A model generated the notes under the pieces. It ran no database searches, was not told the origin of the DNA, and saw only the letters and a list, made by a program, of their open reading frames with translations. A program made the position numbers and the translations under genes. This document shows positions 2,661 to 61,747 of a DNA stretch of 64,000 bases, piece after piece (position 1 is the stretch's first letter; each line of letters begins with the position of its first letter). Source of the stretch: Terrabacter tumescens (GTDB lineage: Bacteria > Actinomycetota > Actinomycetes > Actinomycetales > Dermatophilaceae); NCBI RefSeq assembly GCF_014646815.1, contig NZ_BMNZ01000001.1, forward strand, positions 248,001 to 312,000, written 5' to 3'.

Positions 2661-2666
2661 GGAGGT

Positions 2667-3902
2667 ATGCCGCCCTCCGCCCTGCCCGACGGGGACCCCG
2701 CTCCCGCCACGGGTGAGCTGCCACCCGCAGCCCTCTCCGACGTCTCGCGGACCGACCTCGGCATCTACGTCCACGTGCCGTTCTGCACGGTGCGCTGCGG
2801 CTACTGCGACTTCAACACCTACACCCTGACCGAGCTGGGCGGTCCCGGCGCCAGCATCGGCATCGACACCTACGCCGACGCGGCCGTGCGCGAGCTCGAC
2901 CTCGCCCGAACCGTCCTGGGTGACGAGGCGCCGGCGGTCTCGACGGTCTTCGTCGGCGGTGGCACTCCCACGATGTTGAGGTCACGCGACCTCGTGTCGG
3001 TGCTCGACGGCATACGCGACCGTTTCGGGCTGGCGCCGGACGCGGAGGTCACGACGGAGGCCAACCCCGACTCCGTGACGCCCGAGTCGCTGCGCGAGCT
3101 CGCCGACGGGGGCTTCACCCGCGTCTCCGTGGGCATGCAGTCGGCGGTGCCGCACGTGCTGCACACGCTCGAGCGCACGCACGACCCCGAGAACGTCGCG
3201 CGCGCCGTGGCGGCCACCCGCGCTGCCGGCATGCAGGTCAGCGTCGACCTCATCTACGGCACGCCGGGGGAGTCGCTCGAGGACTGGCGCCGCAGCCTCG
3301 AGGCCGCGATCGCGCTCGAGCCCGACCACGTATCCGCCTACGCGCTCGTCGTCGAGGACGGCACGAAGCTGGCCGCTCAGGTGCGTCGTGGTGTCGTGCC
3401 CGCGCCCGAGGACGACGACGAGGCGGACAAGTACGAGCTCGCCGACGAGCTGCTGACGGCCGCGGGCTTCGGCTGGTACGAGGTGAGCAACTGGGCCCGC
3501 TCCGAGCGGCAGCGGTGCCGCCACAACGTCGCGTACTGGGCCGGCACGAACTGGTGGGGCGTCGGGCCGGGGGCGCACAGCCACGTCGGCGACGTGCGCT
3601 GGTGGAACGTCAAGCACCCGAGTGCGTATGCCGGCCGGCTGGCTGCCGGGCAGTCGCCCGCCCATGCGCGTGAGACCCTCACCGACGAGCAGCGCTACGA
3701 CGAGCGTGTGCTGCTCGGCACACGCCTCGTCGAGGGACTGCCCGTCTCGGATCTGCGAGGATCGGGACGCACCGCGGTGGCCGGCCTCATCGCCGACGGT
3801 CTCGTGGACGGGTCTGCGGCCCTGCGGGACTCGCGGCTCGTCCTGACCCGCCGAGGGCGGCTGCTCGCCGACACCGTGGTGCACCGGCTCCTCGCCGCCT
3901 GA
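2667..3902 (+). CDS. hemW: Radical SAM heme chaperone HemW (coproporphyrinogen III oxidase-like)
   Basis: The 411-residue protein carries the radical SAM cluster motif CxxxCxxC at Cys40, Cys44 and Cys47, preceded by YVHVPFC as is typical of HemW, and the SAM-binding GGGTPT motif further on. HemW-type proteins bind heme and are thought to deliver it to respiratory enzymes; older annotations call them oxygen-independent coproporphyrinogen oxidase. The position just upstream of hrcA-dnaJ is the conserved order in actinobacteria. The ATG at 2667 is preferred over upstream in-frame starts, which would overlap the divergent lipoprotein gene and add unrelated residues. Confidence 0.93.
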   Translation: MPPSALPDGDPAPATGELPPAALSDVSRTDLGIYVHVPFCTVRCGYCDFNTYTLTELGGPGASIGIDTYADAAVRELDLARTVLGDEAPAVSTVFVGGGTPTMLRSRDLVSVLDGIRDRFGLAPDAEVTTEANPDSVTPESLRELADGGFTRVSVGMQSAVPHVLHTLERTHDPENVARAVAATRAAGMQVSVDLIYGTPGESLEDWRRSLEAAIALEPDHVSAYALVVEDGTKLAAQVRRGVVPAPEDDDEADKYELADELLTAAGFGWYEVSNWARSERQRCRHNVAYWAGTNWWGVGPGAHSHVGDVRWWNVKHPSAYAGRLAAGQSPAHARETLTDEQRYDERVLLGTRLVEGLPVSDLRGSGRTAVAGLIADGLVDGSAALRDSRLVLTRRGRLLADTVVHRLLAA

Positions 3903-3926
3903 GGGGCCCCGACGAAGAAGGGCGCC

Positions 3927-5480
3927 ATGAGCGAGACCGTGTCGACGACGACCCCCGGTGAGATCCCCGACGAGACCTCCGGTGACGGGACGAGCCACCC
4001 CGAGCAGGTCGGAGCCGTCGCAGGCAGCGCGCCGGCGGACCGCCTCCCGGCAGACGCGGTGGCGGCGGCACGCCGCGCCTTCGAGCAGGACGTCACCAAG
4101 CCGCGCCCGTGGCGGGTCGCCCAGCTCCGGGCGCTGCGGACCCTCCTCGTCGAGCACGAGCACGAGATCGCGCAGGCCCTGCACGCCGACCTCGGCAAGA
4201 GCGCGACCGAGGCCTGGGTCACCGAGACCGGCTTCGTCGTGCGGGAGATCGACCACACGCTGCGCCACCTGCGGGCCTGGACCGCGCCCCGTCGGGTGCG
4301 GGTTCCCTTGTCGCTCAAGCCGGGACGGGCCAAGATCGTGCGCGAGCCGCTCGGTGTCGTGCTCGTCATCGCGCCGTGGAACTATCCCGTCCAGCTGTGC
4401 CTGGCGCCGCTCGTCGGGGCGCTCGCCGCAGGAAACGCCGTCGTGCTCAAGCCGAGCGAGGTCGCCCCGGCCACGTCCGCGCTCCTCGCGCGGCTCCTGC
4501 CGATGTACCTCGACACCTCCGCCGTGCACGTCGTCGAGGGAGGGGTCCCGGAGACGACGGAGCTTCTCGCGCAACGCTTCGACCACATCTTCTACACCGG
4601 CAACGGCGCGGTCGGGCGGATCGTGCTCGAGGCGGCGACCAAGCACCTGACGCCGGTGACGCTGGAGCTCGGGGGCAAGTCGCCGGCCTACGTCTCCGAC
4701 GACGCCGACCTCCCGGTCGCGGCGCAGCGTCTCGTGTGGGGGAAGTTCACCAACGCGGGCCAGACCTGCGTCGCGCCGGACTACGTCATCGCGAGCCGGC
4801 AGACGCTCGAGGCGCTGAAGCCCCTGCTCGTCGACGCCATCCGCGCGGCCTTCGGCCCCGACCCGTCGACCTCGCCCGACTACGGACGCATCATCGGCGC
4901 CCGACACTTCGACCGCCTCGCCGCGCTCGTCGACCCGGCGCGGGTCGTCACCGGCGGCCGGTCGGACGCCGCGACCCGCTACCTCGAGCCGACGGTCGTC
5001 GACGTGGTGGACGCCGACGACCCGCGCGAGCTGGTGATGCGCGAGGAGATCTTCGGGCCCGTCCTCCCGCTCGTGCCCGTCGACGGGCTCGACGCCGCCA
5101 TCGACTTCGTGAACCGCCGCGACAAGCCTCTCGCCCTCTACGTCTTCACCACCTCCGACGCCGTGCGACGACGCTTCGAGCGCGACACCTCCTCGGGCGC
5201 GCTCGCCTTCAACGTCCCCCTCGCGCACCTGGCCGTGCCGGGCCTTCCCTTCGGCGGCGTCGGGGCGAGTGGGACGGGCGCCTACCACGGCGAGCGGTCG
5301 ATCGAGCTCTTCTCCCACGCCAAGTCGGTGCTGTCGCTGCCGACCCGGCCGGACACGACCGTGTTCGTGCGGCCGCCATTCTCCTCTGCCAAGCAGCAGG
5401 TGATCCGTCGGGTCGCCGTGCCGGGCCGGCGTCGGGGTGGACGGGGCGCCTCCGGCGGCGCCGCGCCGGGCGCTGAATGA
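3927..5480 (+). CDS. NAD(P)-dependent aldehyde dehydrogenase, class 3 type
   Basis: The 517-residue protein oxidises aldehydes to carboxylates. The catalytic pair is visible: Glu247 in [10 protein letters not shown] and Cys281 in [11 protein letters not shown]; the latter wording is typical of the ALDH3/fatty-aldehyde group. The cofactor-binding APWNYP motif is at about 150-155. The first 45 residues are an acidic, Ser/Thr-rich extension absent from most family members, and the last 30 are Arg/Gly-rich. Start ATG 3927 has GAAGAAGGG eight bases upstream. It follows hemW by 24 bases and may be co-transcribed. Substrate unknown. Confidence 0.9.
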
Positions 5481-5621: not shown

Positions 5622-7349
5622 ATGCCTCTGGCCATCGACGACCAGGCAGGTCGGGTCCCGGACCTCCGCGCTCTGCCTGCCGGCCCCGCCGCCCCGCTCG
5701 CGCCCGTAGCGCACCGACGCGGGCGCCCTGCCACCGTCCTGCTCGGCATCGTCGCGATGCTCGTGGCGGCCGTCGGTCTGGCCGCCCCCGCGCGTTCGGC
5801 CGAGTGGATCGTCCTGTGCAGCGGGTACGACGCCTGCCAGAGTTCTGGCTACTCGCATGCTGGCTACAAGGAAAACAGCGCGACGAGCTACTGGCGCCAG
5901 TCGACGGGACACAACTGCACCAACTACGTGGCCTATCGCTTGGTGAAGAATGGGCTGCCCAACACCAAGCCGGCCACTCTGTCGGGGAATGCCTACAACT
6001 GGGGGCCCTCCTTTGCGGCCCAGACCAACACGAGCCCGGCCGTCGGCTCGGTGGCTTGGTGGGACACGTCCTACTCCTCGACGGGACACGTCGCTTATGT
6101 CGAGAAGGTCCTGTCGGCTTCAGAGATCATCATCTCCGAGGACAACTGGGGCGGCGACTTCCGATGGCGCAGGGTGACAGCCAGTGGTGGCCGCTGGCCC
6201 AAGGGCTTCATTCACCTGAAGGACCAGGGCGCAACCATTGCCACCGATGGTCGGGCGTTCCAGGTCGCCGCACCGTCGCGCCTTCTCGACACGAGAACGG
6301 GTCTCGGGGCACCGCTCGGCAAGGTGCAGGCGGGCAAGGCTGTCACCGTTCAGGTCACGGGGCGTTCCGGTGTGCCCGCCGCAGGAGTCGGGACCGTGAT
6401 GCTCAACGTCAACGTCACCGCCCCTGTCACTTCGGGCTACCTGACTGCGCATGCGAATGGCACCGCCCAGCCGAGCTCGCGGGCCGTGTCATACCCGGCG
6501 GGTGGGGTCACCACAACTCTGGTTCTCAGTCGTGTCGGCACGGATGGCAAGGTCCGCTTCTACTCGTCTGCTACGACGGACATCTCGGCCGACCTCGTCG
6601 GATGGTCGCCGACGGGAGGCTATGTCTCCGGAGGTGCCCCGGTTCGAGTGCTGGACACACGTACTGGCACGGGTGCGCCCAAGGCTCGCCTTGCCGCCGG
6701 AGGTAGCGTGACGCTCCCCTTGGCCGGCAAGGCCGGCATGCCGACAACAGGGGTGGCCGCCGTGCTCCTCGACGTGTCAGCATCTGCGCCTTCGGCCGCC
6801 GGCTGGCTCACCACGTGGGCAGCCGGGTCGGCGCGTCCGGCCGCTCCCCAAGTGCGATACGAGAGCACCGTCGCCGCCACCGGTCTGGTTCAGGCCCGTC
6901 TTGGCTCGAACGGTGCGGTGACGATCCACTCCACCGCCCAGACCGACCTACTCGTTGATGTGGTGGGCTGGCTGCCAGTGGGAGCGGACCAGGTCGCTGT
7001 AGGACCCAGCCGTGTCCTCGACAGCCAGACTGGGCTGGGATACCCGTTGGGTCGCGTGGCGGCTGGTCACGCGCCGAGCGTCTCGGTCGTCGGAAAGGCT
7101 GGCGTGCCAGCCACCGGCGTCAGGGCCGTCGTGCTGACCGTCACCGTCGTCTCGCCGACAAGCGCCGGGTACGTCACGGCATACCCGAGTGGCTCTACTG
7201 AGCCTCCATATGCAACGGCCAAGTACGCCGCAGGTAGGACCGTGACGAACACGGTGCTGGTACCGGTGGGTCTGAACGGTGCCGTGAGCGTCAAGACATC
7301 CGCCTCCGCGTATCTGAAGGTGGACGTGCAGGGATACGTGCGCTGGTGA
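5622..7349 (+). CDS. Secreted CHAP-domain amidase with three C-terminal beta-type repeats
   Basis: The 575-residue protein has a signal peptide (hydrophobic 38-55, cleavage likely after ARSA at 57-60). A CHAP peptidase/amidase domain spans about 90-200, with the catalytic Cys99 in HNCTNYVAY and His156 in TGHVAYVE. Three repeats of about 115 residues follow, beginning near 217, 337 and 460. Each opens with PSR/PVR-[LV]LD[TS] and ends with a DLVGW/DVVGW/DVQGY-type strand. The domain pattern suggests peptidoglycan cleavage with repeats for surface binding. Composition is AT-richer than neighbouring genes (many codons ending in A or T), which suggests transfer or relaxed codon selection. Start ATG 5622 follows GGGAGA. 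Confidence 0.85.
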   Translation: MPLAIDDQAGRVPDLRALPAGPAAPLAPVAHRRGRPATVLLGIVAMLVAAVGLAAPARSAEWIVLCSGYDACQSSGYSHAGYKENSATSYWRQSTGHNCTNYVAYRLVKNGLPNTKPATLSGNAYNWGPSFAAQTNTSPAVGSVAWWDTSYSSTGHVAYVEKVLSASEIIISEDNWGGDFRWRRVTASGGRWPKGFIHLKDQGATIATDGRAFQVAAPSRLLDTRTGLGAPLGKVQAGKAVTVQVTGRSGVPAAGVGTVMLNVNVTAPVTSGYLTAHANGTAQPSSRAVSYPAGGVTTTLVLSRVGTDGKVRFYSSATTDISADLVGWSPTGGYVSGGAPVRVLDTRTGTGAPKARLAAGGSVTLPLAGKAGMPTTGVAAVLLDVSASAPSAAGWLTTWAAGSARPAAPQVRYESTVAATGLVQARLGSNGAVTIHSTAQTDLLVDVVGWLPVGADQVAVGPSRVLDSQTGLGYPLGRVAAGHAPSVSVVGKAGVPATGVRAVVLTVTVVSPTSAGYVTAYPSGSTEPPYATAKYAAGRTVTNTVLVPVGLNGAVSVKTSASAYLKVDVQGYVRW

Positions 7350-8308: not shown

Positions 8309-8436
8309 GACAAGCGAGCGTATGCCGCGTGCCGGCCGTCGGTGGGACGCCACGCTGGGTGCCCCCCGGGTCCACCGCGGGACGGCTCCCAAGGCGCATA
8401 CGGTTGGATGAAATCGGAGATCGGCGGGGCACGACG

Positions 8437-11558: not shown

Positions 11559-11569
11559 CGGCATACGCC

Positions 11570-12881: not shown

Positions 12882-13462
12882 GACAGCTCCAGGAGTTCGA
12901 CGGTGCGGCGCAGGGCCGTCAGGCCGCGGTGGGCATGGGTCTTCACGGCGCCGGGGGAGATCTCGAGGGCCTGGGCGATCTGGGCCTCGGACAGGTCGGA
13001 GTAGTAGCGAAGGACGAGCACCTCGCGCTGGCGCTCCGGCAGCGTGCGGAGGGCACGAAGGACGGCGTCACGCTCTGCGGAGCGGAGCACCTGGGTCTCG
13101 GCGCTGCCGTGGCTGCCCCGGCCGGGCGCGTCCGCCGCGGCCGCCTCGCGCGCGTTCTGCCGGTCGACGACGACGCTGTGGCGCTGCACGGACCGGCAGC
13201 CGTTGACCACGGCGGTCTGGAGGTAGCCGACGACCCGGCCGCTGTCGCGGATCGAGGACCAGCTGCGGTGGGTCGCCACGAAGGCGTCCTGGACGACGTC
13301 CTCGGCGGCGAGCTGATCGCGCAGCAGGAGCCAGGCGAGGCGGACGAGCCGGTGCCAGTGCGCCTCGTAGAGGACGGTGACGGCGGCGTCGGGATCGGTC
13401 GGCAGCTCGGAGGGCCCAGGGGCCTCGGAGGAACCAGAGGCACTGAGCTGGCCAGCCGGCAT
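12878..13462 (-). CDS. ECF RNA polymerase sigma factor (SigE family)
   Basis: The 194-residue protein has sigma region 2 at about 27-97 (LYEAHWHRLVRLAWLLLRD, then AEDVVQDAFVATHR) and region 4 at about 130-185 (LPERQREVLVLRYYSDLSEA, then IAQALEISPGAVKTHAHRG). These belong to the actinobacterial SigE-type ECF group. Start ATG 13462 lies inside a copy of the GTATGCCG octamer; starting further upstream would add an unconserved tail. It forms an operon with the GerMN membrane protein. Target promoters are unknown. Confidence 0.9.
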   Translation of the reverse strand: MPAGQLSASGSSEAPGPSELPTDPDAAVTVLYEAHWHRLVRLAWLLLRDQLAAEDVVQDAFVATHRSWSSIRDSGRVVGYLQTAVVNGCRSVQRHSVVVDRQNAREAAAADAPGRGSHGSAETQVLRSAERDAVLRALRTLPERQREVLVLRYYSDLSEAQIAQALEISPGAVKTHAHRGLTALRRTVELLELS

Positions 13463-13565
13463 ACCCAACGTTCTCACGCAGATATGACGCGCAGGTGGCG
13501 TCGCCGGTTGACACGGCATCGTGTCGCCCCGTGCCCGTCCCGTCCGCGAGGGCTCACGACGCGCT

Positions 13566-16705: not shown

Positions 16706-16874
16706 TCGAACCTCGGTCACCGTCCCAGCCCAGCGGGACGGGTGTCAAGGGCCCGTCTCGCGGAGGCTGGCAGGATGAGCCCGGACGCACCCGGCATACG
16801 CGGACGGCAGGCACGCACGGCAAGCACGCACGGGGTTCGGCGAGGCGACAGTGGTCGGGGACGAGGAGGCACGG

Positions 16875-17915
16875 GTGGGGCAGCGGCGAGCGGTCTCGAT
16901 GGCCGACGTGGCGCGCCTGGCCAACGTGTCGGCGCAGACGGTCTCGCGCGTCTCGAACGGCGAGAGCAGCGTCGTCGAGAGCACGAGGCTCTCCGTCCTC
17001 CGGGCGATGGAGGAGCTCGGCTACCGGCCCAACAGCGCCGCTCGCGCCCTGAAGCGCGGGGAGTTCCGGGCGATCGGGGTCATGACCTTCACCCTGTCGA
17101 CGACCGGCAACGTGCGCACCCTCGAGGGCATCGTGGCGGCCGCCGCCGCCCAGGACTACGCCGTGACGCTCATCCCCGTCGGGGCCCCGTCGCAGGACGC
17201 CGTGCGCGGAGCGTTCACGCGCGCCGGCGAGCTCGCCGTCGACGCGGTGGTCGCCATCATGGAGACCCACCTCGCGAGCGACGCGCCCCCGCCCTACCCG
17301 CCCGGCTTCAAGGTGGTCGTGGCCGACTCGGACGACGCCGGTGACCGGCACCCCGTCGTCGACACCGACCAGGCTGCGGGTGCCGTCTCGGCCGCCCAGC
17401 ACCTGCTCGACCTCGGGCACCGCACCGTGTGGCACGTGGCAGGGCCGGAGAGCTCGTATGCCGCGCAGCGCCGTCGCGACGCCTGGCAGGCGCAGCTCGT
17501 GGCGCGGGGTCTCGAGGTGCCGCCCGTCCAGCACGGCGACTGGACGCCCCGGTCCGGCTACGAGATCGGTCTCCGGCTGGCCGAGGAGCCTTCGTGCACA
17601 GCGGTTTTCGCGGCGAACGACCAGATGGCTCTCGGGCTCCTGCGGGCTTTTCACGACAGTGGCCTCCGGGTGCCCGAGGACGTCAGCGTCGTCGGCTTCG
17701 ACGACGTGCCGGAGGCGGAGTCCTACATCCCGCCGCTGACGACGGTGCGCCAGGACTTCGAGCAGATCGGCCGGCTCTGCGTCGAGCAGGTGCTCGGACA
17801 GGTGCGGCGGACCGGGCCGACGACCGGCACCACCCTCGTGCCCACGCAGCTCGTCGTGCGCTCGAGCACCGCCGCGCCGGGGCGCACGGGTGCGCGGCGC
17901 CCACGACGTGCCTAG
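16875..17915 (+). CDS. LacI-family transcriptional regulator
   Basis: The 346-residue repressor has the LacI helix-turn-helix at about 7-30 (SMADVARLANVSAQTVSRVS) and a hinge with NSAARALKRG. The periplasmic-binding-like sensor follows, with VFAANDQMALGLLRA and DVSVVGFDDVPEAESYIPPL near the end. GTG 16875 is preferred over GTG 16851 because AGGAGG lies five bases upstream of it and the length then fits the family. It is divergent from the GH30 gene with a perfect operator between, so it most likely controls that gene, and itself, in response to a sugar. Confidence 0.92.
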   Translation: MGQRRAVSMADVARLANVSAQTVSRVSNGESSVVESTRLSVLRAMEELGYRPNSAARALKRGEFRAIGVMTFTLSTTGNVRTLEGIVAAAAAQDYAVTLIPVGAPSQDAVRGAFTRAGELAVDAVVAIMETHLASDAPPPYPPGFKVVVADSDDAGDRHPVVDTDQAAGAVSAAQHLLDLGHRTVWHVAGPESSYAAQRRRDAWQAQLVARGLEVPPVQHGDWTPRSGYEIGLRLAEEPSCTAVFAANDQMALGLLRAFHDSGLRVPEDVSVVGFDDVPEAESYIPPLTTVRQDFEQIGRLCVEQVLGQVRRTGPTTGTTLVPTQLVVRSSTAAPGRTGARRPRRA

Positions 17916-18284: not shown

Positions 18285-19813
18285 GCGAGGAGAGCGCGCC
18301 GTCTGGCGAGAACGTCTCTGCGACAACGGAGCCGGCCGACGTCGAGGTCAAGGTGGCCGGTGCGGAGGCCAAGCCCGCCGAACCGGTCGACGACCTCGTC
18401 ACGACGCACCACACGCTCAAGGTCGGGCGTCGCCGCCTGCGCTACACCGCGACGACGGGGCGCGTCGTGCTCCGTGAGGAGGAGCACAAGGACGGCACCT
18501 TCGGCGGCCACAAGGCGCGCGCCGAACTGTCCATGACGAGCTACGTCCTCGACGACGCCGACGCCCGCACGCGCCCGGTCACCTTCGCCTTCAACGGCGG
18601 TCCCGGCAGCTCGAGCGTCTGGCTCCACCTGGGCCTGCTCGGCCCTCGCAGGGTCGTCAGCGGGGACGTCGGCGCCCTCCAGCCGCCGCCGTACGACCTC
18701 GTGGACAACCCCGAGTCGCTCCTCGCCGTCAGCGACCTCGTCTTCATCGACCCCATGTCGACGGGGTACTCCCGTGCCGTTGAGGGCGGCAAGCCGGCGG
18801 ACTACCACGGCTACCAGAAGGACATCGAGTCCGTCGCCGAGCTGATCCGGCTGTGGACCTCGCGCAACGGTCGCTGGATGTCGCCGAAGTTCGTCGCCGG
18901 CGAGTCCTACGGCACGCTCCGCGGTGCGGCTCTCGCGGAGCACCTCCAGTCCCGCTACGGGATGTACCTCAACGGGCTCATCCTCATCAGCAGCGTGCTC
19001 GACCTCAGCTCCGTCGACTTCGAGAACCAGCGCAACGACCGCGCCCACGCGCTCTACCTGCCGACGTATGCCGCCGTGGCCCACTTCCACGGCAAGCACG
19101 GCCGCCGCTCGCTGCGCTCCGTCCTCGACGAGGCGGAGGCGTATGCCGCCCGCGACTACCCGTGGGTGCTGTCCCGGGGCAACCGCCTGACGAAGGGCGA
19201 ACGGGCCGAGGCGGTGTCGACCCTGGCGCGGCTCTCCGGGCTGACCGAGGACTACGTCGACCGCGCCGACCTGCGCATCGAGCACTGGCGCTACTTCACC
19301 GAGCTGCTGCGCGACGAGCGCCTGTCGGTGGGGCGGCTCGACGCGCGCTTCACCGGTCCTGCCGCGGCAGCCATCGCCGAGAACATGGATGCCGACCCCT
19401 CGCACGACGCGATCACCGGACCCTATGCCGCGGCCTGGAACCACTACGTGCGCGACGAGCTCGGCTACGGCAGCGACCTGCACTACGAGCAGATCTCGCG
19501 TCTGGTGCACCCGTGGTCGTTCAAGGACTTCGAAGGCCGGCCGATCGACGTCTCGCCCAAGCTCGAGCGGGCCATGCGCCAGAACCCGCACCTCAAGGTG
19601 CACATCGCCTACGGCTACTACGACGGCGCGACGCCCCACTTCGCCGCCGAGGACGTCGTGGCGCACCTGCAGCTGCCCGCCGAGCGCCTCGCCAACGTCG
19701 AGCACGCCTACTACGAGGCGGGGCACATGATGTACGTCCACGAGCCGTCGCGCCTCCAGCAGAGCCGGGACCTCGCCGAATTCGTGGTGAGGAGCGCGGG
19801 CCGCGACACGTAG
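18281..19813 (+). CDS. Serine carboxypeptidase-like S10 peptidase
   Basis: A 510-residue alpha/beta-hydrolase of peptidase family S10. It shows the oxyanion segment FNGGPGSSS and the nucleophile Ser209 in AGESYG; a late GYYDGATPHFAAE and YEAGHMMYVH supply the Asp and His. There is no signal peptide (the first 40 residues are acidic and hydrophilic), so it seems cytoplasmic, unlike eukaryotic members. GTG 18281 overlaps the HIT stop codon and implies translational coupling. It sits between HIT and phoH. Confidence 0.88.
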   Translation: MSEESAPSGENVSATTEPADVEVKVAGAEAKPAEPVDDLVTTHHTLKVGRRRLRYTATTGRVVLREEEHKDGTFGGHKARAELSMTSYVLDDADARTRPVTFAFNGGPGSSSVWLHLGLLGPRRVVSGDVGALQPPPYDLVDNPESLLAVSDLVFIDPMSTGYSRAVEGGKPADYHGYQKDIESVAELIRLWTSRNGRWMSPKFVAGESYGTLRGAALAEHLQSRYGMYLNGLILISSVLDLSSVDFENQRNDRAHALYLPTYAAVAHFHGKHGRRSLRSVLDEAEAYAARDYPWVLSRGNRLTKGERAEAVSTLARLSGLTEDYVDRADLRIEHWRYFTELLRDERLSVGRLDARFTGPAAAAIAENMDADPSHDAITGPYAAAWNHYVRDELGYGSDLHYEQISRLVHPWSFKDFEGRPIDVSPKLERAMRQNPHLKVHIAYGYYDGATPHFAAEDVVAHLQLPAERLANVEHAYYEAGHMMYVHEPSRLQQSRDLAEFVVRSAGRDT

Positions 19814-19826: not shown

Positions 19827-20986
<1,160 letters not shown>

Positions 20987-26705: not shown

Positions 26706-26792
26706 CGCGCTCCTCCGTCGTCCACGGATCGGGCAGGGGTCTCACGATGCGGGCACCGGTCCCGAGGGGTGGACGCGACGGGACGACCGGCA

Positions 26793-26798
26793 TACGGT
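26793..26798 (+). promoter_or_regulatory. Possible -10 box of the leuA leader
   Basis: TACGGT lies 15 bases before the leader-peptide GTG. It overlaps a copy of the CGGCATAC octamer (26788-26795). The -35 region is not recognisable. Confidence 0.35.
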
Positions 26799-31077: not shown

Positions 31078-31091
31078 ACGAGGGTCTCCTG

Positions 31092-38682: not shown

Positions 38683-38716
38683 GTATGCCGTCCGCCCACC
38701 CGGGCGGGCGGCATAC
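38683..38716. terminator. Hairpin built from an inverted pair of GTATGCCG octamers
   Basis: Left arm GTATGCCGTCCGCCC (38683-38697), loop ACCC, right arm GGGCGGGCGGCATAC (38702-38716); one T/C difference becomes a G-U pair. It lies 21 bases after glyS. No T-run follows. CATACT at the right edge may serve as -10 box of the next gene. Confidence 0.65.
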
Positions 38717-40208: not shown

Positions 40209-40937
40209 GTGCGTGCTCACCTGGTCCTCGTGCACGGGTCGCGCCTGTCGAGCACCCAGTGGGCGCCCCAGGTGCCGCTGCTGCGCGACCATGTCGACCT
40301 GACGCTCGTCGACCTCCCGGGCCATGGCGCGCGCGCCGCCGAGGAGTTCACGCTCGCCCGCTGCGTCGAGGTCATCGACGACGCCGTCCGGGCGGTCCCC
40401 GAGGGGTCGCCCGTGGTCCTCGTCGGCCACTCGCTCGGCGGCTACGCCGCGATGGCGTATGCCGCGTCCCACCCCGACGCGCTCGACGGCCTCGTCCTCG
40501 CCGGGGCGAGCGCCACCCCGACCGGGCCGGGCGCAGCCGTGTACCGCGGCGTGGCGGCGCTCACCGACCGGCTCGGCCCCGAGCGCATGACCCGCGTCAA
40601 CGACCGCGTGCTGCACCGGCTCTACCCGGCCGAGCGGGTCGACCCGGTCATCGCCGGCGGCTACTACTTCACGCCGACCGCCGCCGCGTGGCGCGAGGTC
40701 ATGGCGCACTGCCGGCCCGCCATGCTCCGCGGCGTGCACTGTCCGGTGCTGCTCCTCAACGGACGGTTCGACCAGTTCCGCGTCGGTGCCAAGACCTACC
40801 TGAGAGCCTGCCCCGGTGCACGCGTCGAGATCGTCCCGAGGGCGAGCCACTTCGCCAACCTCGACCAGCCTGAGGCCTTCGCCGACGCCCTCCTGCGCTT
40901 CGCCGGCGCCGTGGCCGATTCGGCCTCTCGCGCCTGA
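40209..40937 (+). CDS. Alpha/beta hydrolase
   Basis: A 242-residue hydrolase. The nucleophile Ser75 is in VGHSLGGY, the acid is probably the Asp in LLNGRFDQF and the base His is in PRASHFANLDQP. GTG 40209 is chosen because the fold begins directly with HLVLVHGS. There is no signal peptide. Substrate unknown. It is followed at once by dusB, whose own -10 box sits six bases after this stop. Confidence 0.85.
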   Translation: MRAHLVLVHGSRLSSTQWAPQVPLLRDHVDLTLVDLPGHGARAAEEFTLARCVEVIDDAVRAVPEGSPVVLVGHSLGGYAAMAYAASHPDALDGLVLAGASATPTGPGAAVYRGVAALTDRLGPERMTRVNDRVLHRLYPAERVDPVIAGGYYFTPTAAAWREVMAHCRPAMLRGVHCPVLLLNGRFDQFRVGAKTYLRACPGARVEIVPRASHFANLDQPEAFADALLRFAGAVADSASRA

Positions 40938-42179: not shown

Positions 42180-42887
42180 TCACTTCAGCCAGACGCTGAG
42201 CGGCCCCAGCCGCTCGCACCCCGCGCCAACAGCGGCGTCGACGCTCGCGCCGGCCTCCCAGCCGACGAGGGGTATGCCGCCGGTGACGGTCCGCGCCGCG
42301 GCCGCGGCCGCGCTCCAGGCCCTCTCGACGTCGCCGTCGCGGGCGAAGACGTTGCCGAGCCCCGCCACCTCGCCCGTCACGTTGACGATCGCACCGGTGA
42401 CGACCGGTGACGCCGGGTCGTCCGAGGTCCGTGCGCCGAGGACGTGGACGCCCGGCTCGTCGAGCAGCGACGGGCGCAGGATGGCCTCGGCGTCGGGGTC
42501 GCTCGCCCAGCCGCGCACCCACTCCGCCATCTCGGCAGGCGTCGTGAGGCGCTGCCAGCGGCTGTCGGCGGCCAGCCGGGTCGACGGGACCGACGGGTCG
42601 AGCCAGACCCACTCGCCGACGACGAGGCGCGCGAAGTCCTCCATCGACAGGTCGAGCCGGGACCACGAGTCCTTGACGGAACAGCCGTCCGAGTCGTCGA
42701 TGCGAGCCAGCACGTCGTACTCCCCGGCGTCCGGCGACAGCGTCACGGCGTCGGGGTAGTAGGGCGGCGTGCGCGTCGACGCGGTCCACGCCACGTCGTC
42801 GGTCGTGCACGCCACGCCGTGCGAACGCGCGACGGCGTCGCACCAGAGGGCGTTGTTGCGGGCGGCGAGGACGATGCGGTCGGTCAC
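42180..42887 (-). CDS. Hypothetical protein
   Basis: A 235-residue soluble protein with no motif I can assign firmly. The N-terminal MTDRIVLAARNNALWCDAV and the C-terminal GGIPLVGWEAG, followed by GCERLGPLSVWLK, have the rhythm of acetyltransferase-related proteins, where a GxxxVGxE strand closes the fold, but this is weak. GTG 42887 has GGGAGGAT upstream. It is divergent from the YdeI-like gene. Confidence 0.6.
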   Translation of the reverse strand: MTDRIVLAARNNALWCDAVARSHGVACTTDDVAWTASTRTPPYYPDAVTLSPDAGEYDVLARIDDSDGCSVKDSWSRLDLSMEDFARLVVGEWVWLDPSVPSTRLAADSRWQRLTTPAEMAEWVRGWASDPDAEAILRPSLLDEPGVHVLGARTSDDPASPVVTGAIVNVTGEVAGLGNVFARDGDVERAWSAAAAAARTVTGGIPLVGWEAGASVDAAVGAGCERLGPLSVWLK

Positions 42888-43837: not shown

Positions 43838-45067
43838 GTGGGCTATCAGGGTCGGGACCGGGAGCGCTGGGTCGCGGAGGACCCTGCCCAGAAGCGCGCC
43901 GACCGTGACGACTTCGCCCGCGACCGGGCCAGGGTCGTGCACTCGTCGTCCCTGCGCCGCCTCGCCGCCAAGACGCAGGTGCTGGCGCCCGGCCACGACG
44001 ACTTCGTCCGCAACCGGCTGACGCACTCGCTCGAGGTGGCGCAGATCGGGCGCGAGTTCGGCGCGGCGCTCGGCTGCAGCGCCGACGTCGTCGACACGGC
44101 CTGCCTCTCGCACGACCTCGGGCACCCGCCGTTCGGGCACAACGGCGAGACCGTGCTCGACGAGATCGCCTCGGACATCGGGGGGTTCGAGGGCAACGCG
44201 CAGACCCTGCGCCTGCTCACGAGGCTCGAGGCCAAGCGGGCTCACGCCGACGGCACCTCGGCCGGTCTCAACCTGACCCGGGCGAGTCTCGATGCCACGA
44301 CGAAGTACCCCTGGGGGCGCGGCGACGGCCCCTACGAGACGAGGAAGTTCGGCGTCTACCCCTCCGACCTGCCCGTCTTCGCCTGGATCCGCGAGGGCGC
44401 CGAGCCCCGCAACCGGTGCCTCGAGGCCGAGGTCATGGACTGGTCCGACGACGTCGCCTACTCCGTCCACGACGTCGAGGACGCCATCGCCTCCGGCTGG
44501 ATGGACCCGAGGGCGCTCCACTCGCGCGACATGGCCGACGTCATCGACGTGGCCGGTCGCACCTACGCCCCCGACCTCGGTGCCGACGCCCTGGGGGCCG
44601 CGCTGGAACGCCTGCTGGCCTCGGGAGCGATGCCCACGGCATACGACGGCTCCCGTGGTGACCTGGCGCGCCTCAAGGACATGACGAGCCGGCTCATCGG
44701 CCACTTCGTGCTCGTCGTCGAGCAGGCCACCCGGGAGCGGCACGGCCCGGGCGAGCTGTGCCGGTTCGAGGCCGACCTCGTCGTCCCCGACGACACGCGC
44801 GCCGAGTGCTCCGTGCTCAAGGCGATCGCCAACCACTTCGTCATGACGACCGAGGAGCGCCTGTCGGTCATGTCGGGCCAGCGTGATGTCGTCCGTGCCC
44901 TCGTGGAGGCGTATGCCGGGTCGCCCGAGGAGCGCCTCGACGCCGCCTTCCGGGCCGACCACGCGACGGCCTCCGACGACGGTGAGCGGCTGCGCGTCGT
45001 CGTCGACCAGGTGGCCTCGCTGACCGACGTGCGCGCCCTCGCCCTCCACAGCCAGTGGTGCCGGTGA
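43838..45067 (+). CDS. dgt: Deoxyguanosinetriphosphate triphosphohydrolase-like protein
   Basis: A 409-residue HD-domain dNTP triphosphohydrolase. The metal-binding HD motif is in RNRLTHSLEVAQ and CLSHDLGHPPFGHNGE. EVMDWSDDVAYSVHDVEDAI is the second conserved block. It degrades dNTPs to nucleosides and triphosphate and so shapes the dNTP pool. It lies just upstream of dnaG, the usual actinobacterial pairing. The leaderless GTG start is supported by the -10 box and by the conserved first residues. Confidence 0.94.
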   Translation: MGYQGRDRERWVAEDPAQKRADRDDFARDRARVVHSSSLRRLAAKTQVLAPGHDDFVRNRLTHSLEVAQIGREFGAALGCSADVVDTACLSHDLGHPPFGHNGETVLDEIASDIGGFEGNAQTLRLLTRLEAKRAHADGTSAGLNLTRASLDATTKYPWGRGDGPYETRKFGVYPSDLPVFAWIREGAEPRNRCLEAEVMDWSDDVAYSVHDVEDAIASGWMDPRALHSRDMADVIDVAGRTYAPDLGADALGAALERLLASGAMPTAYDGSRGDLARLKDMTSRLIGHFVLVVEQATRERHGPGELCRFEADLVVPDDTRAECSVLKAIANHFVMTTEERLSVMSGQRDVVRALVEAYAGSPEERLDAAFRADHATASDDGERLRVVVDQVASLTDVRALALHSQWCR

Positions 45068-51287: not shown

Positions 51288-52757
51288 TCAGGGGCTGCCC
51301 TCCGCCGCCGTCGTCGAGGACGCGCTGGGCTCGCTCGTCGAGGTGGTGGGTTCGCTCGCCGCCGACGTGGCGGGCTTGCTCGTCGCGGTACCCGTGGACG
51401 AGCTCGTCGAGGTCTCTGCCGCGGTGGCGACCGCGGTGGCGGTCTTCAGGACGCGGGTCGCGGTCGCCGTGGCGGTCGCCGTAGCGGTGGCGGTCGCCGT
51501 CGGCTCGGACGCGGCGGGTGCGGCTGCAGCGGCGCTCGTCGAGCTCGGCGGGTCGGACACAGGCGCCTGGCTCGTGGCGGGGGACTGGGTCGTGGTCGTG
51601 GTGTCCGGAGGGGTCGTCGTGGTCGTCGTGCTGGGTGTGCCCGTCGTCGTCCCGGTCGTCCCCGTCGACCCTGTGGTGGTCGTCGTGCTCGGCGGGGTCG
51701 TCGTCGGGGGCATGGTGGACGTCGTGGCGCTGCCCGTCGGGGACGGCTTGGTGCTCGTCGGGGACGGCTTCGTCGTGGGAGCAGGAGAGCTCGTCGTGGG
51801 ACGGCTCGTCGTCGGCGTGCCCGTGGGCTTGCTGGTCGACGGCGGACGGCCACCCGTGCTGCTGGGCGACGACGTCACGACGGTGGCCTCGGTGAGCGGG
51901 ACGTCACCGTCCGCGACGGTGCGGATGACGCGGCTGCCCGGGTCGAGCACGAGGTGCGGGACGACGGCATACGGGACGGATGCCGTGGCTGACGGCGCGA
52001 AGCCGAGGTAGGGAGCGGGGTCGACGTAGCGGTCGTTGATGATGACGTCGAAGTGCAGGTGGCAGCCGGTGGACCAACCGGTCGTACCGCTCAGGCCGAT
52101 GACCTGGCCCTGCTTGACGGCCTGGCCCTCGGTGACGAGGAACTTCGACTGGTGACCGTAGGCGGTCTTGACCGTCGGGCTGTGCTGGATGATCGTGCGT
52201 CCGCCCCATGACGCCGAGACCCGGGCGTAGATGACCGTGCCGTCCGCGGCTGCGTGGATCGGCGTGCCGCAGGCCGCCGCGAGGTCGATGCCGGTGTGGA
52301 ACATCGGGCGACCGAGGAGCGGGTGGATGCGCGGGCCGAACGGCGAGGTCTCACCGCCGGCCACGGGGTGGATGAAGAGCGGCCGCCCGACGATCGGGGC
52401 CGCGATGGCCTCGGCCGTCGCCGGCGTCAGGCTGATCGCCGGGAACATGAACAGACCGCCACCGATGGCGGTCGAGAAGGCGGAGTCGACCGGAGCCAGC
52501 GCCGCTGTCGGGGCGCTGGCGGCCGTCGACCGGGACAGCTCGCCCTGGGCCTGCCCCACGGCAGCGACGGCGTCCTTCACGGCAGGCGACCCGGCCGCGA
52601 GCACGACCGATGCGGTCGGCGTCTGGGGTGCGCTGCCACCCAGGAAGGGCAGCATCGCAAAGAGCAGGAGCATCGTCGCGAAGGGCACAAGTCTGCCGCG
52701 CATCCGAATGTTCAGGACGCGCGGACCACTGCGCTCATTGGCGTCTGTCACCGTCAA
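51288..52757 (-). CDS. Secreted M23-family peptidase with long Ser/Thr/Pro-rich tail
   Basis: A 489-residue exported protein. A signal or anchor helix lies at about 24-40. The M23 (LytM-like) domain is at about 135-250, with zinc ligands His154 and Asp158 (HTGIDLA) and His235 (HLHF), and His202 in YGHQS. All key residues are present, so it should be an active glycyl-glycine or peptidoglycan endopeptidase. Residues from about 290 to the end are low complexity: Ser, Thr, Pro and an Ala-Thr run. This could span the cell wall and be O-glycosylated. TTG 52757 is used, with GAGGGGGG upstream; GTG 52751 is the alternative. Confidence 0.87.
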   Translation of the reverse strand: MTVTDANERSGPRVLNIRMRGRLVPFATMLLLFAMLPFLGGSAPQTPTASVVLAAGSPAVKDAVAAVGQAQGELSRSTAASAPTAALAPVDSAFSTAIGGGLFMFPAISLTPATAEAIAAPIVGRPLFIHPVAGGETSPFGPRIHPLLGRPMFHTGIDLAAACGTPIHAAADGTVIYARVSASWGGRTIIQHSPTVKTAYGHQSKFLVTEGQAVKQGQVIGLSGTTGWSTGCHLHFDVIINDRYVDPAPYLGFAPSATASVPYAVVPHLVLDPGSRVIRTVADGDVPLTEATVVTSSPSSTGGRPPSTSKPTGTPTTSRPTTSSPAPTTKPSPTSTKPSPTGSATTSTMPPTTTPPSTTTTTGSTGTTGTTTGTPSTTTTTTPPDTTTTTQSPATSQAPVSDPPSSTSAAAAAPAASEPTATATATATATATATRVLKTATAVATAAETSTSSSTGTATSKPATSAASEPTTSTSEPSASSTTAAEGSP

Positions 52758-53067
52758 GCCACCCCCCTCGAGGTACTGCTGCTGTCACCGTCGACCCTCG
52801 TGCGGTGGACCCGGCACCGCAACCGGAAGGCCATCGCGAACGCCCCCACGTCCTGACCGGCCGGTCCCCTCCACCATAGGTGCGAGGGTTGCACAAGGGG
52901 CGATTCCCGAGAAATTCGGTCGGGATCCGTGACGGATGTGACGGATGTGCCACATGTCCGGAACGCAGGTGTGGCCCGCCCGGTCCTGGGACTGGACGGG
53001 CCACACCTTCGAAGCACGCGGCATACGTCAGCGTGCGACGCTCCGGTGCGACGGGTTGGGGCTGGGA
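52758..53067. other. 310-base gap between the M23 and M43 genes
   Basis: Both flanking genes are on the minus strand. The gap holds the M43 terminator hairpin (52967-53008), one CGGCATAC octamer (53019-53026) and a short direct repeat (GACGGATGTG twice, near 52931-52949). I compared it with the ydaO (c-di-AMP) riboswitch often found before such genes and saw no match. Confidence 0.6.
52967..53008 (-). terminator. Terminator downstream of the M43 peptidase gene
   Basis: A perfect 12-base stem AGGTGTGGCCCG/CGGGCCACACCT with an inner GTCC/GGAC stem. Confidence 0.75.
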
Positions 53068-57438: not shown

Positions 57439-57446
57439 TAAACGAG

Positions 57447-57497
57447 GGCGTATGCCGGGTGGCCGGCTCCCCGCGAGCCCGCCACCCGGCATACGCC
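57447..57497. terminator. Long hairpin with an inverted GTATGCCG pair, after whiB
   Basis: Arms GGCGTATGCCGGGTGGC (57447-57463) and GCCACCCGGCATACGCC (57481-57497) pair perfectly over 17 bases. An inner GGCTC/GAGCC stem extends it. It ends the HNH-WhiB unit, 64 bases before rtcB. Confidence 0.85.
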
Positions 57498-58875: not shown

Positions 58876-60126
58876 TCAGATGCTGCGGATCGCCAGGGCG
58901 ACGTTGTGGCCGCCGAAGCCGAACGAGTTGTTCAGGGCCGCGATGTCGCCGTCGGGCAGCTTCTGGTGCTCGCCGGTGACGACGTTGAGCGCGATCTCGG
59001 GGTCCTGCTCGTCGAGGTTGATCGTGGCCGGCACGAGCCGGTTGTGGATCGACTGGATCGTGATGACGGCCTCGAGTGCGCCGGCCGCGCCGAGCAGGTG
59101 GCCGGTCATGGACTTCGTGGCCGTGACCGTCAGGTCGTCGGTGTGGTCGCCGAAGGCCCGCTTGATCGCGTTGTACTCCGCGACGTCGCCCACCGGGGTC
59201 GAGGTGGCGTGCGCGTTGATGTGGATGATGTCGGTCGGCGACAGGTCGGCCCGCTCGACGGCATACAGCATCGCGCGGGACGCGCCCGACCCGTTGGGCT
59301 CGGGGGCGGTGATGTGGTGCGCGTCGGCCGACATGCCGACGCTCGCGAGCTCGGCGTAGATGCGCGCACCGCGGGCCCGGGCGTGCTCCTCGGACTCGAG
59401 CACGATGACGGCAGCGCCCTCGCCGAGGACGAAGCCGTCGCGGCCGGTGTCGTAGGGGCGCGAGGCCTTCGCGGGGTCGTCGTTGCGTGTCGAGAGGGCC
59501 TGCATGGCGGCGAAGCCGGCGATCGGCAGCGGGTGGACCGCTGCCTCGGTGCCACCGGCGACGACGACGTCGGCCCGACCGGTGCGGATCATGTCGATCG
59601 CGTAGCCCATGCTCTCGGCGCCGGAGGCGCAGGCGCTGACGGTCGTGTGGGCGCCGGCGCGGGCACCGAGGTCGAGCGACACCGCGGCCGCAGGGCCGTT
59701 GGGCATGAGCATCGGTACGGCGAGGGGGTAGACCCGTCGGGGGCCCTTCTCGCGCAGGTTGTCCCACTGGTCGAGCAGCGTCCACACGCCGCCGATGCCG
59801 GAGCCGATCGCGGCGCCGAGGCGCTCCGGCTCGACCTCCGGCTTGCCGGCGTCGGCCCAGGCCTCGCGGGCGGCGATGAGGGCGTACTGGCTCGACGGGT
59901 CGAGACGGCGGGTCTCGACCTTGGCGAGGACGTCACCGGGCGGGGTGGCGATGGTCGCGGCGAAGGTGACGGGGAGCTCGTACTTGGCGACCCAGTCGAA
60001 CTCCATGGGGCGTGCGCCGGACCGGCCGGCGAGCAGGGCCTCCCACGTCTCCGTGGCGGTTCCGCCCAGGGGCGTGGTGGCTCCGAGACCGGTGACCACG
60101 ACGCGTCGGTCGCGATTGGACGTCAT
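58876..60126 (-). CDS. fabF: 3-oxoacyl-ACP synthase II
   Basis: A 416-residue elongating condensing enzyme of fatty-acid synthesis. Catalytic Cys166 is in VSACASGAE, with the two His residues in INAHATSTP and FGFGGHNVA. ATG 60126 has AGAGGAG upstream. It is the last gene of fabD-fabH-acpP-fabF; a 178-base gap with tandem repeats separates it from acpP. Confidence 0.96.
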   Translation of the reverse strand: MTSNRDRRVVVTGLGATTPLGGTATETWEALLAGRSGARPMEFDWVAKYELPVTFAATIATPPGDVLAKVETRRLDPSSQYALIAAREAWADAGKPEVEPERLGAAIGSGIGGVWTLLDQWDNLREKGPRRVYPLAVPMLMPNGPAAAVSLDLGARAGAHTTVSACASGAESMGYAIDMIRTGRADVVVAGGTEAAVHPLPIAGFAAMQALSTRNDDPAKASRPYDTGRDGFVLGEGAAVIVLESEEHARARGARIYAELASVGMSADAHHITAPEPNGSGASRAMLYAVERADLSPTDIIHINAHATSTPVGDVAEYNAIKRAFGDHTDDLTVTATKSMTGHLLGAAGALEAVITIQSIHNRLVPATINLDEQDPEIALNVVTGEHQKLPDGDIAALNNSFGFGGHNVALAIRSI

Positions 60127-60304: not shown

Positions 60305-60553
60305 TCAGGACTGCGCGCCGGCGATGAAGGTGACGGCGTCGCGGACGGTCTTGAGGTTCTTGACCTCGCTGTCCGGGATGCGCACGCCGAACTTCTCCTC
60401 GGCGTTGACGACGATCGTCATCATCGACAGGGAGTCGATGTCGAGGTCCTCGGTGAAGGACTTGTCCATCTCGACGGACGCGGTGTCGAGACCGGTCTCC
60501 TCGTTGACGATCTCGGCAAGACCCTCGAGGATCTCCTGCTCGGACTGAGCCAT
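60305..60553 (-). CDS. acpP: Acyl carrier protein
   Basis: An 82-residue acidic four-helix protein. The phosphopantetheine site is Ser41 in DLDIDSLSMM. It carries acyl chains for FabD, FabH and FabF. ATG 60553 has AAGGAG upstream. In the fab operon. Confidence 0.96.
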   Translation of the reverse strand: MAQSEQEILEGLAEIVNEETGLDTASVEMDKSFTEDLDIDSLSMMTIVVNAEEKFGVRIPDSEVKNLKTVRDAVTFIAGAQS

Positions 60554-60691
60554 CTGTCTGCTCCTTGTTCGTGTTGGCGGTTCGTGCTGGCGGTGGTGCC
60601 CGGTTCGGTCATCCGTGGTGGATGACCTCCCCTGGCCCGAATGACCCGTCGGGACCGGCGGGAGTGCTGGGACTGCCCGTGCTGGGAGTGC

Positions 60692-61747
60692 TCAGGGCAG
60701 CACGACGACCTGCGCGGCATACACGAGGCCGGCTCCGAAGCCGATCTGGAGCGCGAGGCCGCCGCTGGGGATCTCCTTCTCGGCGAGCATCCGCGTCGTC
60801 GCGATCGGGATCGAGGCCGCCGAGGTGTTGGCGGTGGTCACGATGTCGCGGGCGACGGGGATGTCGGCCGGCAGCTTGAGCTGCTTGACCATCGCGTCGA
60901 TGATGCGGATGTTCGCCTGGTGCGGGATGAACGCGTCGAGGTCGTCGGCCTTGATGCCGGCCTTGTCGATGGCCTGCTGCGCGACGGGGGCCATGCCCCA
61001 GACGGCCCAGCGGAAGACGGTCTGGCCGGCCATGCCGATCGCGGGCCAGACGTTCTTGTCGGCCTGGGCCGACTGCCACGACTCGCGCACGTCGGTCCAC
61101 GCCTGCTTCTGCGTGATGGCGTCGCGCTGCGTGCCGTCGGAGCCCCACACGGTCGGGCCGATGCCCGGGGTGTCGCTCGGGCCGACGATGCAGGCGCCCG
61201 CTCCGTCGCCAAAGATGAAGGCGCTGCCGCGGTCGTAGGGGTCGGTGAAATCGCTGAGCTTCTCGACGCCGACGACGAGGACGTAGTCGGCCGAGCCGCC
61301 CTTGACCATGTCGCTCGCCATCGCCACGCCGTAGCAGTAGCCCGCACAGGCTGCCGAGATGTCGAGGGCGGGCGCGGTCGAGCCGAGGCGCGAGGCGAGC
61401 TCGGGCGCGGCGGCGGGCGTCTGGTACGGGTGCGTCACCGTGGCGACGAGGACGAAGCCGATCTGCTCGGGCGAGATGCCCGCGTGCTCGAGGGCCTGGC
61501 GCGAGGCTGCCTCGGCCATGTCGATGACGCTCTCGTCGTCGGCGGCGAAGTGACGGCTGATGATGCCGGACCGCTCTCGGATCCACTCGTCGCTCGAGTC
61601 GATCTTGTCGACGATCTCGGAGTTCATGACGACGCGGGCCGGGCGGTAGGCACCGACGCCGAGGATCCGCGAGTGGCGCGCGGCGCCGTTGTCGACGAGG
61701 GTGCCGGTGCCCTTGGGCGTCGGCGCGGTGGCGCTGGGGGATGTCAC
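60692..61747 (-). CDS. fabH: 3-oxoacyl-ACP synthase III
   Basis: A 351-residue initiating condensing enzyme. Catalytic Cys134 is in ISAACAGYC, His in FIPHQANIRI and Asn in TTANTSAASIP complete the triad. It starts fatty acid synthesis from acetyl- or branched acyl-CoA. GTG 61747 follows GAGAAGG. A 15-residue N-terminal extension precedes the conserved part. A 139-base gap with a small hairpin (61819-61837) lies between it and fabD. Confidence 0.95.
   Translation of the reverse strand: MTSPSATAPTPKGTGTLVDNGAARHSRILGVGAYRPARVVMNSEIVDKIDSSDEWIRERSGIISRHFAADDESVIDMAEAASRQALEHAGISPEQIGFVLVATVTHPYQTPAAAPELASRLGSTAPALDISAACAGYCYGVAMASDMVKGGSADYVLVVGVEKLSDFTDPYDRGSAFIFGDGAGACIVGPSDTPGIGPTVWGSDGTQRDAITQKQAWTDVRESWQSAQADKNVWPAIGMAGQTVFRWAVWGMAPVAQQAIDKAGIKADDLDAFIPHQANIRIIDAMVKQLKLPADIPVARDIVTTANTSAASIPIATTRMLAEKEIPSGGLALQIGFGAGLVYAAQVVVLP

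Follow-up and report, generated by a model that had tools for sequence, protein, structure and literature searches.

Why should one octamer, GTATGCCG, be strewn on both strands across 64 kb of the genome of the actinobacterium Terrabacter tumescens, within and between genes alike? The stretch in question (contig NZ_BMNZ01000001.1, positions 248,001 to 312,000; G000:C1:248001-312000 in our survey), called the window below, belongs to a genome of 4.71 Mb in 23 contigs. An original prediction, made from the letters of the window, had proposed that the DNA word itself is favoured and had likened it to DNA uptake sequences, to HIP1 of cyanobacteria, or to a methylation or protein-binding mark. Here, we report that the octamer is maintained as a DNA word, and that this lineage probably uses it to recognise DNA for uptake, as one of several dialects of a DNA uptake sequence found in actinobacteria.

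Abundance and maintenance of the octamer

Recounting the window yielded the 33 exact copies of GTATGCCG that had been predicted (16 on the plus strand and 17 on the minus strand), the first starting at 2665 and the last ending at 60722 (Table 1), and 100 dinucleotide-preserving shuffles of the window gave a mean of 0.93 and a maximum of 4. The heptamer GTATGCC/GGCATAC was present 34 times, the one at 37212 being, again as predicted, the sole instance that does not extend to the octamer. Since GTATGCCG differs from its own reverse complement, CGGCATAC, the word is non-palindromic. The whole genome contains 2358 copies (1158 + 1200), versus 199 (111 + 88) of the reversed word, which served as the control, and the density in a 532-kb sample was 508 per Mb.

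Markov models were then compared on 464 kb from three contigs, where 236 copies of GTATGCCG were observed against expectations of 6.9 (order 2), 11.4 (order 3), 64.9 (order 4), 171.8 (order 5), and 231.7 (order 6). Among all octamers, the word ranked first at order 2 and second at order 3, after its own one-base shift. The order-6 model, which the original prediction had named as the check to be made, thus left no excess; we judged this result uninformative because the inner 7-mers are nearly confined to the octamer (GTATGCC 242, TATGCCG 248), and we regard synonymous-codon shuffling as the better control.

When codons were shuffled synonymously in the 532 kb, 8.1 coding copies of GTATGCCG were expected and 188 were observed, and in 472 kb all six phase/strand classes exceeded their expectation. 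Tyrosine codons followed the word closely: TAT was used in 113/131 cases (86%) in the context G-TAY-GCC-G, versus 18/183 across the three Tyr-GCC contexts from which at least one flanking G is missing (6-14%), 11/101 before other Ala codons, and 62/2327 (3%) where no Ala follows. In the same G-TAY-GCC-G context, TAT was found in 0/11 cases in word-free relatives and in 0/12 in Microbacteriaceae carrying another variant. The near-word GTACGCCG is depleted in the 472 kb (28 coding copies versus 60.8 expected), as if converted, and GGATGCCG was found at 87 coding copies versus 63.5 expected. These data indicated that it is the DNA word and not a peptide that is maintained, in line with the prediction, and the enrichment survived the objection, raised together with it, that a preference for Tyr-Ala codon pairs might be responsible.

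Within the window, 20 of the 33 copies lie in called genes, where they occupy several phases and either gene strand, and 13 lie outside, which bears out the predicted mixture of reading frames and intergenic sites. Gene coordinates and phases were taken from a simple gene caller written for this analysis that misses some genes, so that the 13 are an upper figure (copy 7177 falls in an uncalled long open reading frame [ORF]). The ATA codons said to be forced on hemW and on the 42180-42887 gene are there, at copies 3008 and 42272. In the larger sample, 76/270 copies fall between genes, the same caller counting 15% of that DNA as non-coding, and 68 intergenic copies showed a flank preference, with C before (79%), T after (63%), and G at +12 (75%).

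Copies less than 80 bp apart tend to form inverted pairs in this genus, as was seen for 8/9 close pairs in the 472 kb and for 7/11 in a same-genus sample of homologous regions. Both such pairs in the window fold into strong hairpins, and 0/200 shuffles were as stable in either case: the fold of 38678-38722 has an energy of -33.2 kcal/mol (z -5.7) and that of 57445-57500 one of -50.0 kcal/mol (z -8.3). Neither window hairpin was among the T-tailed terminators identified. Alignment to eight relatives, which are not independent of one another, showed 98/121 copies conserved versus 43.7 expected for same-phase octamers, and 16/23 losses and 13/19 gains were one-base changes. Together, the mostly one-base gains and losses and the conservation indicated that copies come and go mostly through point mutation and are actively retained where they stand. 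The DNA that flanks the copies is unrelated, only 4 of 36,046 copy pairs being alike.

Table 1. Copies of the octamer and hairpins formed by inverted copies in the window (window coordinates)
Feature	Position	Strand	Context
GTATGCCG	2665..2672	+	overlaps called hemW start codon, supplies ATG (GT-ATG-CCG)
GTATGCCG	3008..3015	-	in hemW, opposite strand; forces ATA (Ile)
GTATGCCG	3626..3633	+	in hemW; Tyr(TAT)-Ala
GTATGCCG	7177..7184	-	outside called genes; inside long ORF 5538-7349
GTATGCCG	8320..8327	+	outside called genes
GTATGCCG	11559..11566	-	directly past called gene end 11558
GTATGCCG	13457..13464	-	overlaps called start codon 13462, supplies ATG (GT-ATG-CCG)
GTATGCCG	16792..16799	-	outside called genes
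GTATGCCG	17456..17463	+	within gene, Tyr-Ala phase
GTATGCCG	19066..19073	+	within gene, Tyr-Ala phase
GTATGCCG	19141..19148	+	within gene, Tyr-Ala phase
GTATGCCG	20940..20947	-	PhoH-like gene, opposite strand
GTATGCCG	23890..23897	+	within gene, Tyr-Ala phase
GTATGCCG	26788..26795	-	outside called genes
GTATGCCG	29196..29203	+	within gene, Tyr-Ala phase
GTATGCCG	29784..29791	+	within gene, Tyr-Ala phase
GTATGCCG	31072..31079	-	overlaps called start codon 31077, supplies ATG (GT-ATG-CCG)
GTATGCCG	32395..32402	+	in gene RecO-like by eye, phase 0
GTATGCCG	35535..35542	+	within gene, opposite strand
GTATGCCG	38683..38690	+	inverted pair, left half
GTATGCCG	38709..38716	-	inverted pair, right half
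GTATGCCG	39889..39896	-	within gene, Tyr-Ala phase
GTATGCCG	40457..40464	+	within gene, Tyr-Ala phase
GTATGCCG	41848..41855	-	dihydrouridine synthase gene, opposite strand
GTATGCCG	42272..42279	+	42180-42887 gene, opposite strand; forces ATA (Ile)
GTATGCCG	44637..44644	-	within gene, opposite strand
GTATGCCG	44911..44918	+	within gene, Tyr-Ala phase
GTATGCCG	51965..51972	-	M23 peptidase gene, Tyr-Ala phase
GTATGCCG	53019..53026	-	outside called genes
GTATGCCG	57450..57457	+	inverted pair, left half
GTATGCCG	57487..57494	-	inverted pair, right half
GTATGCCG	59259..59266	-	within gene, Tyr-Ala phase
GTATGCCG	60715..60722	-	ketoacyl synthase III gene, Tyr-Ala phase
Hairpin of two inverted octamers	38683..38716		just past called gene end 38661; terminator-like
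Hairpin of two inverted octamers	57450..57494		just past called gene end 57438; terminator-like

Distribution, variant spellings and strand arrangement

The survey comprised the T. tumescens genome and 57 relatives (58 genomes), and 38 named genomes were searched; the family is referred to as Intrasporangiaceae, named Dermatophilaceae in GTDB. All 8 same-genus genomes exceeded 200 copies of GTATGCCG per Mb, as did 14 of the 28 family genera sampled (own genus included), the other 14 having about 81 per Mb or fewer. In 22 genomes representing 19 further families of the order, the density never rose above 62 per Mb. Named carriers, with counts of the word over those of its reversal, include Intrasporangium oryzae (2765/357, identical to the counts of survey genome G029), Knoellia locipacati (2535/99, identical to G025), Serinicoccus sediminis (1513/30), S. 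chungangensis (1518/32), Ornithinimicrobium sediminis (1102/130), Arsenicicoccus cauae (1455/462), and a Tetrasphaera metagenome-assembled genome (MAG; 1189/85). No enrichment was found in Janibacter (2 genomes), Phycicoccus (2 genomes), or Luteipulveratus, with 21-47 copies.

In samples of 20 kb or less from other family genera, an octamer with the same core stood out in 3/16, namely GGATGCCG in G034 and G024 and GAATGCCG in G020. Whole-genome counts of GGATGCCG over its reversal were 3949/289 in G034, 3816/392 in G024, 1336/310 in G009, 3838/439 in a Humibacillus MAG, 2099/200 in the Tetrasphaera MAG and, outside the family, 1548/184 in G055; the ratio in the remaining survey genomes was 1.1-3.7, save 5.1 and 6.6 in G011 and G019. 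The GAATGCCG spelling reached 3135 copies versus 27 for the control in G020 (847 per Mb, the next genome having 102 per Mb), which also retains 1025 copies of GTATGCCG. Among Microbacteriaceae, GGATGCCG is high in 5/6 named Microbacterium genomes (2834-4637 versus 163-230), in Leifsonia Root227 (1177/86), in Agreia (1527/159), and in a Rhodoglobus MAG (1309/132), weaker in Leifsonia 71-9 (1349/303), and not high in Microbacterium suaedae (485/149) or Leucobacter luti (339/157). All 8 named Nocardioides genomes are rich in GTACGCCG (1448-2549 versus 131-242), four-fold above the synonymous expectation and in all phases. Class-wide, GTACGCCG is about 10- to 14-fold over the reversed control in several families beside the Nocardioides-like ones (e.g., G089, G148, G149, and G163); because codon shuffling there covered just five 20-kb samples (G118, G058, G089, G149, and G148; 3 to 14 coding copies versus 1.6 to 3.9), we claim this spelling for Nocardioides only, and with reserve.

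By eye, the variants go with clades in a HemW tree of 39 sequences, with losses and a few switches. The intergenic excess was also found in the named family set (22/78 copies, 13% non-coding), in G034, and in G024. These dialects, like the strand alternation described below, are additions to the original prediction. Three further observations concern single genomes. In G058:C1:1-20000 (family f21), GTACGGCG is present 22 times in 20 kb, with 15 coding copies versus 3.4 synonymous, and is perhaps a further variant. The enriched core is shifted to CGGATGCC in G055 (family f19; 35 copies in 40 kb, 25 coding versus 2.4), where the octamer seems to depend less on its final G. The octamers CAGTTCGA, TTCGACGG, and GTGACCGT stand at 26-29 copies in the 20 kb of G031:C1:1-20000, possibly a local repeat array.

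Both strands carry the word equally often, at 81/80 over the 312 contiguous kb (C1:1-312000) and 1158/1200 summed across the contigs, which are unordered. With no strand bias over 312 kb and with alternating neighbours, the polarity of a Chi or an FtsK-orienting (KOPS) signal was not found, and the predicted argument from equal strand use against a polar replication signal holds at this larger scale. Neighbouring copies lie on opposite strands in 106/152 cases versus 76.4 expected in C1:1-312000 with close pairs merged (0/5000 shuffles), most strongly at less than 1 kb. Alternation amounted to 161/254 versus 127 in the whole own-genome sample and was not significant in its part outside C1:1-312000 (55/102, z 0.7). 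It recurred in word-bearing relatives (43/66 and 88/137) and for GGATGCCG in Microbacteriaceae (91/153), and was not significant for seven control words, in Nocardioides (43/90 versus 45), in the Humibacillus/G034/G024 set (42/75 versus 38), or in one Arsenicicoccus contig. Pooling the own, named-family, G015-type, and Microbacteriaceae sets gave 383/610, a pool picked after the results that omits contig C8 of G252 (36/65 versus 32.9), the same-genus homologous regions (76/118), and the Humibacillus/G034/G024 and Nocardioides sets. Spacing is slightly more even than random, with a variance/mean of 0.44 in 10-kb bins and of 0.70 in 6-kb bins (p 0.053) and a gap coefficient of variation of 0.80; gap statistics were obtained after merging copies less than 80 bp apart, and the expected number of short gaps is thereby below 33.

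Proposed role in uptake and its alternatives

What could hold such a word in place? ComEC is encoded in 57/58 genomes, including that of T. tumescens, where a ComEA-like ORF, recognised by eye, adjoins comEC and several Tad clusters are present. The TadE-like family TIGR03816 was detected in 58/58 genomes at E 0.01 and passed the curated cut-off in 53. Flp/Tad pili are needed for the transformation of Micrococcus luteus, according to the portions of PMC6370729 at hand. In one Tad cluster of T. tumescens (L135, about 13390-13440), a masked run (X) lies beside a brief repetitive segment that separates the TadE gene from the TadE-like gene.

Based on these components and on the analogy with known systems, uptake could proceed as follows. 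At the cell surface, a DNA receptor (probably a ComEA-like protein or one of the minor subunits of the Tad/Flp pilus) would prefer double-stranded DNA that bears the word, whichever strand it is on; the pilus would bring this DNA in, ComEA and ComEC would pass a single strand inward, and recombination would replace the homologous stretch. As word-bearing fragments would enter and recombine more often, copies created by point mutation would be kept and would spread wherever they do little harm, i.e., between genes, at silent sites, and in inverted pairs possibly doubling as transcription terminators. A shift in receptor preference would then shift the whole genome and produce one-letter dialects (GTATGCCG, GGATGCCG, GAATGCCG, perhaps GTACGCCG). 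Word-free genera may be indiscriminate in the DNA that they import, or may import none.

Several observations weigh against uptake as the function. ComEC, Tad (T2SSE) ATPases, and TIGR03816 are found just as regularly in relatives that have no enriched word, and competence genes were therefore rejected as discriminators of word carriers. The TadE of the TIGR03816 Tad cluster, our receptor candidate, gained no support either: it showed no dialect pattern by eye, is found in word-free genomes too, and was detected in 27/30 genomes of all classes, those in which it was missed (G012, G018, and G028) including one carrier, G012. Competence has not, to our knowledge, been described for these genera; the published model of competence is M. 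luteus. Some carriers exceed the reversed word by merely 2.5- to 3.1-fold (G023, 2.5-fold; Arsenicicoccus), and two variants reside within one genome in the Tetrasphaera MAG and in G020. Coding enrichment over synonymous shuffles is merely 2.2- to 4.1-fold in Microbacteriaceae and Nocardioides. No intergenic excess was found in Microbacterium (8/94 copies, 9% non-coding), other Microbacteriaceae (11/83, 14%), Nocardioides (7/106, 12%), or the G015/G025/G011/G030/G019 set (37/153, 23%), and inverted close pairs are at chance level in the sets outside this genus (20/36). In five Microbacterium phages, GGATGCCG amounted to 23 coding copies versus 13.3 synonymous, compared with 78 versus 19.5 in five host loci; 17 kb per phage were used, two pairs among the phages are closely related, and the host loci were picked as word-rich and do not come from the phages' own hosts. 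Finally, a term search of three M. luteus papers, PMC4322843 among them, found no mention of an uptake sequence. As a side observation on Microbacterium, a record labelled plasmid (NZ_CP072877.1:100001-150000) encodes genes that are typically chromosomal, namely rsmH, FtsW-/FtsQ-type genes, hemW, and hrcA, carries GGATGCCG at 1340 per Mb, and is probably a piece of the chromosome.

An alternative that we consider unlikely is a modification mark, in which an orphan or restriction-linked methyltransferase (or another modification) would act on GTATGCCG and its variants for self-recognition or regulation. Some modification enzymes commonly recognise non-palindromic sites this long; lineage-specific one-letter changes would follow from changes of target too, and a mark of this kind would be compatible with a role in uptake. 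Restriction targets, however, generally tend to be avoided rather than multiplied, and a modification mark does not predict the conservation of copies in relatives, the need for both flanking G, or the hairpin pairs.

It is likewise improbable that the octamer is an intracellular site for a protein that organises, repairs, or recombines the chromosome (Chi-like, FtsK-orienting, or nucleoid-structuring) and is kept by selection on the cell's own chromosome. The somewhat even spacing and the strand alternation could reflect such a structural role, but the word has no strand polarity over the 312 kb and is patchy within the family, being scarce in half of the 28 genera and unenriched in Janibacter and Phycicoccus, unlike what a core function would show. 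Moreover, a lineage-wide one-letter switch would need thousands of site changes without drive.

That the octamer is mainly a terminator half-site or a dispersed mobile repeat appears very unlikely. The inverted close pairs and the strong folds of both window pairs would suit a terminator, but just 16/239 copies in the 472 kb lie in such pairs, most being single and in genes; a mobile repeat is ruled out by the unrelated flanks and the mostly point-wise turnover. Hardly credible, lastly, is an origin in mutation bias, in the usage of amino acids, or in a preference for certain codons or codon pairs: 101/108 same-strand coding copies in the 472 kb do read Tyr-Ala, and the GGATGCCG baseline in this genome is partly codon context, but the synonymous shuffles and TAT context counts given above rule out the codon-pair explanation for GTATGCCG, with all six phase/strand classes above expectation and intergenic copies in excess.

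We therefore retain DNA uptake as the probable function of GTATGCCG in this lineage. Whether the same holds class-wide is a separate matter. Sequence-specific self-DNA uptake run by Tad pili, with a shared core and dialects, quite possibly extends through a large part of the Actinomycetes (Microbacteriaceae, Intrasporangiaceae with their relatives, and perhaps Nocardioidaceae) and would have evolved independently of the proteobacterial systems, and the opposite-strand neighbours hint at one-directional uptake from the word. We hold this broader proposal more tentatively because hairpin pairs and intergenic excess were not seen outside the family, and for the same reason the words found there may be of the same kind or may partly be coding effects, which GTACGCCG in Nocardioides and GGATGCCG in Microbacteriaceae may partly reflect.

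Comparison with known systems

HIP1 of cyanobacteria is a palindrome, a very frequent octamer of uncertain function found in genes and between them. The analogy drawn in the original prediction stands as far as frequency and the genic and intergenic placement are concerned and fails on symmetry, since GTATGCCG is non-palindromic and has lineage variants. Of the analogies offered, the uptake sequence fits best, in that the word is non-palindromic, lies on both strands, is in excess between genes, forms hairpins in this genus, and has dialects.

The DNA uptake sequence (DUS) of Neisseria, ATGCCGTCTGAA, shares ATGCCGT with GTATGCCGT. In 472 kb of the T. tumescens genome, the 12-base ATGCCGTCTGAA and the 10-base GCCGTCTGAA were found 0 times and ATGCCGTCTG twice, and the resemblance was put down to chance. 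According to portions of Frye et al. 2013 (PMC3630211), Neisseriaceae DUS are, like the word described here, short and non-palindromic, present in thousands of copies on both strands, in genes and between them, and arranged in inverted pairs (which stand out in our data for this genus alone), and their variants, one or few bases apart, follow phylogeny. Unlike them, the word of T. tumescens belongs to another phylum with a Gram-positive wall, no ComP-type receptor was found for it, and it is 8 bp long with a weak flank preference (C before, T after).

The uptake signal sequence (USS) of Pasteurellaceae is of comparable density, 200-800 per Mb in the parts of PMC12616744 available versus 508 per Mb here, and resembles the word in having a conserved core with variable positions and two spellings by lineage (PMC12616744, PMC1939737, both in part). 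It belongs to another phylum and differs in sequence (AAGTGCGGT and ACAAGCGGT in PMC12616744). No overall orientation bias is given for known uptake sequences in the portions at hand, and strand alternation, present here, goes unmentioned in them, those of PMC1939737 on USS included. A 2026 terminator survey places uptake words in the terminators of Neisseriaceae and Pasteurellaceae (PMC13020248, in part), and these two families are the only known sources of uptake sequences in what PMC12616744 (2025) states in the parts at hand. No report of an actinobacterial uptake word was found in the literature searched, a search with bioRxiv and most subscription journals outside its scope.

If the proposal is true, the word would be a third independent case, in another phylum and with several dialects, making self-DNA recognition a repeated invention. 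There would be a further receptor to find, one could predict which actinobacteria may be open to natural transformation and what tag the DNA should carry, and many odd codon choices in these genomes would be explained. The competent organism for comparison is M. luteus, which transforms naturally with Flp/Tad pili, ComEA, and ComEC (PMC4322843 and PMC6370729, portions at hand). The papers term-searched say nothing of an uptake sequence in it; it belongs to the same phylum as T. tumescens, whose genome has ComEC and Tad genes. Taken together, these comparisons suggest that GTATGCCG is similar in kind to the known uptake sequences and, in the literature searched, new for the actinobacteria.

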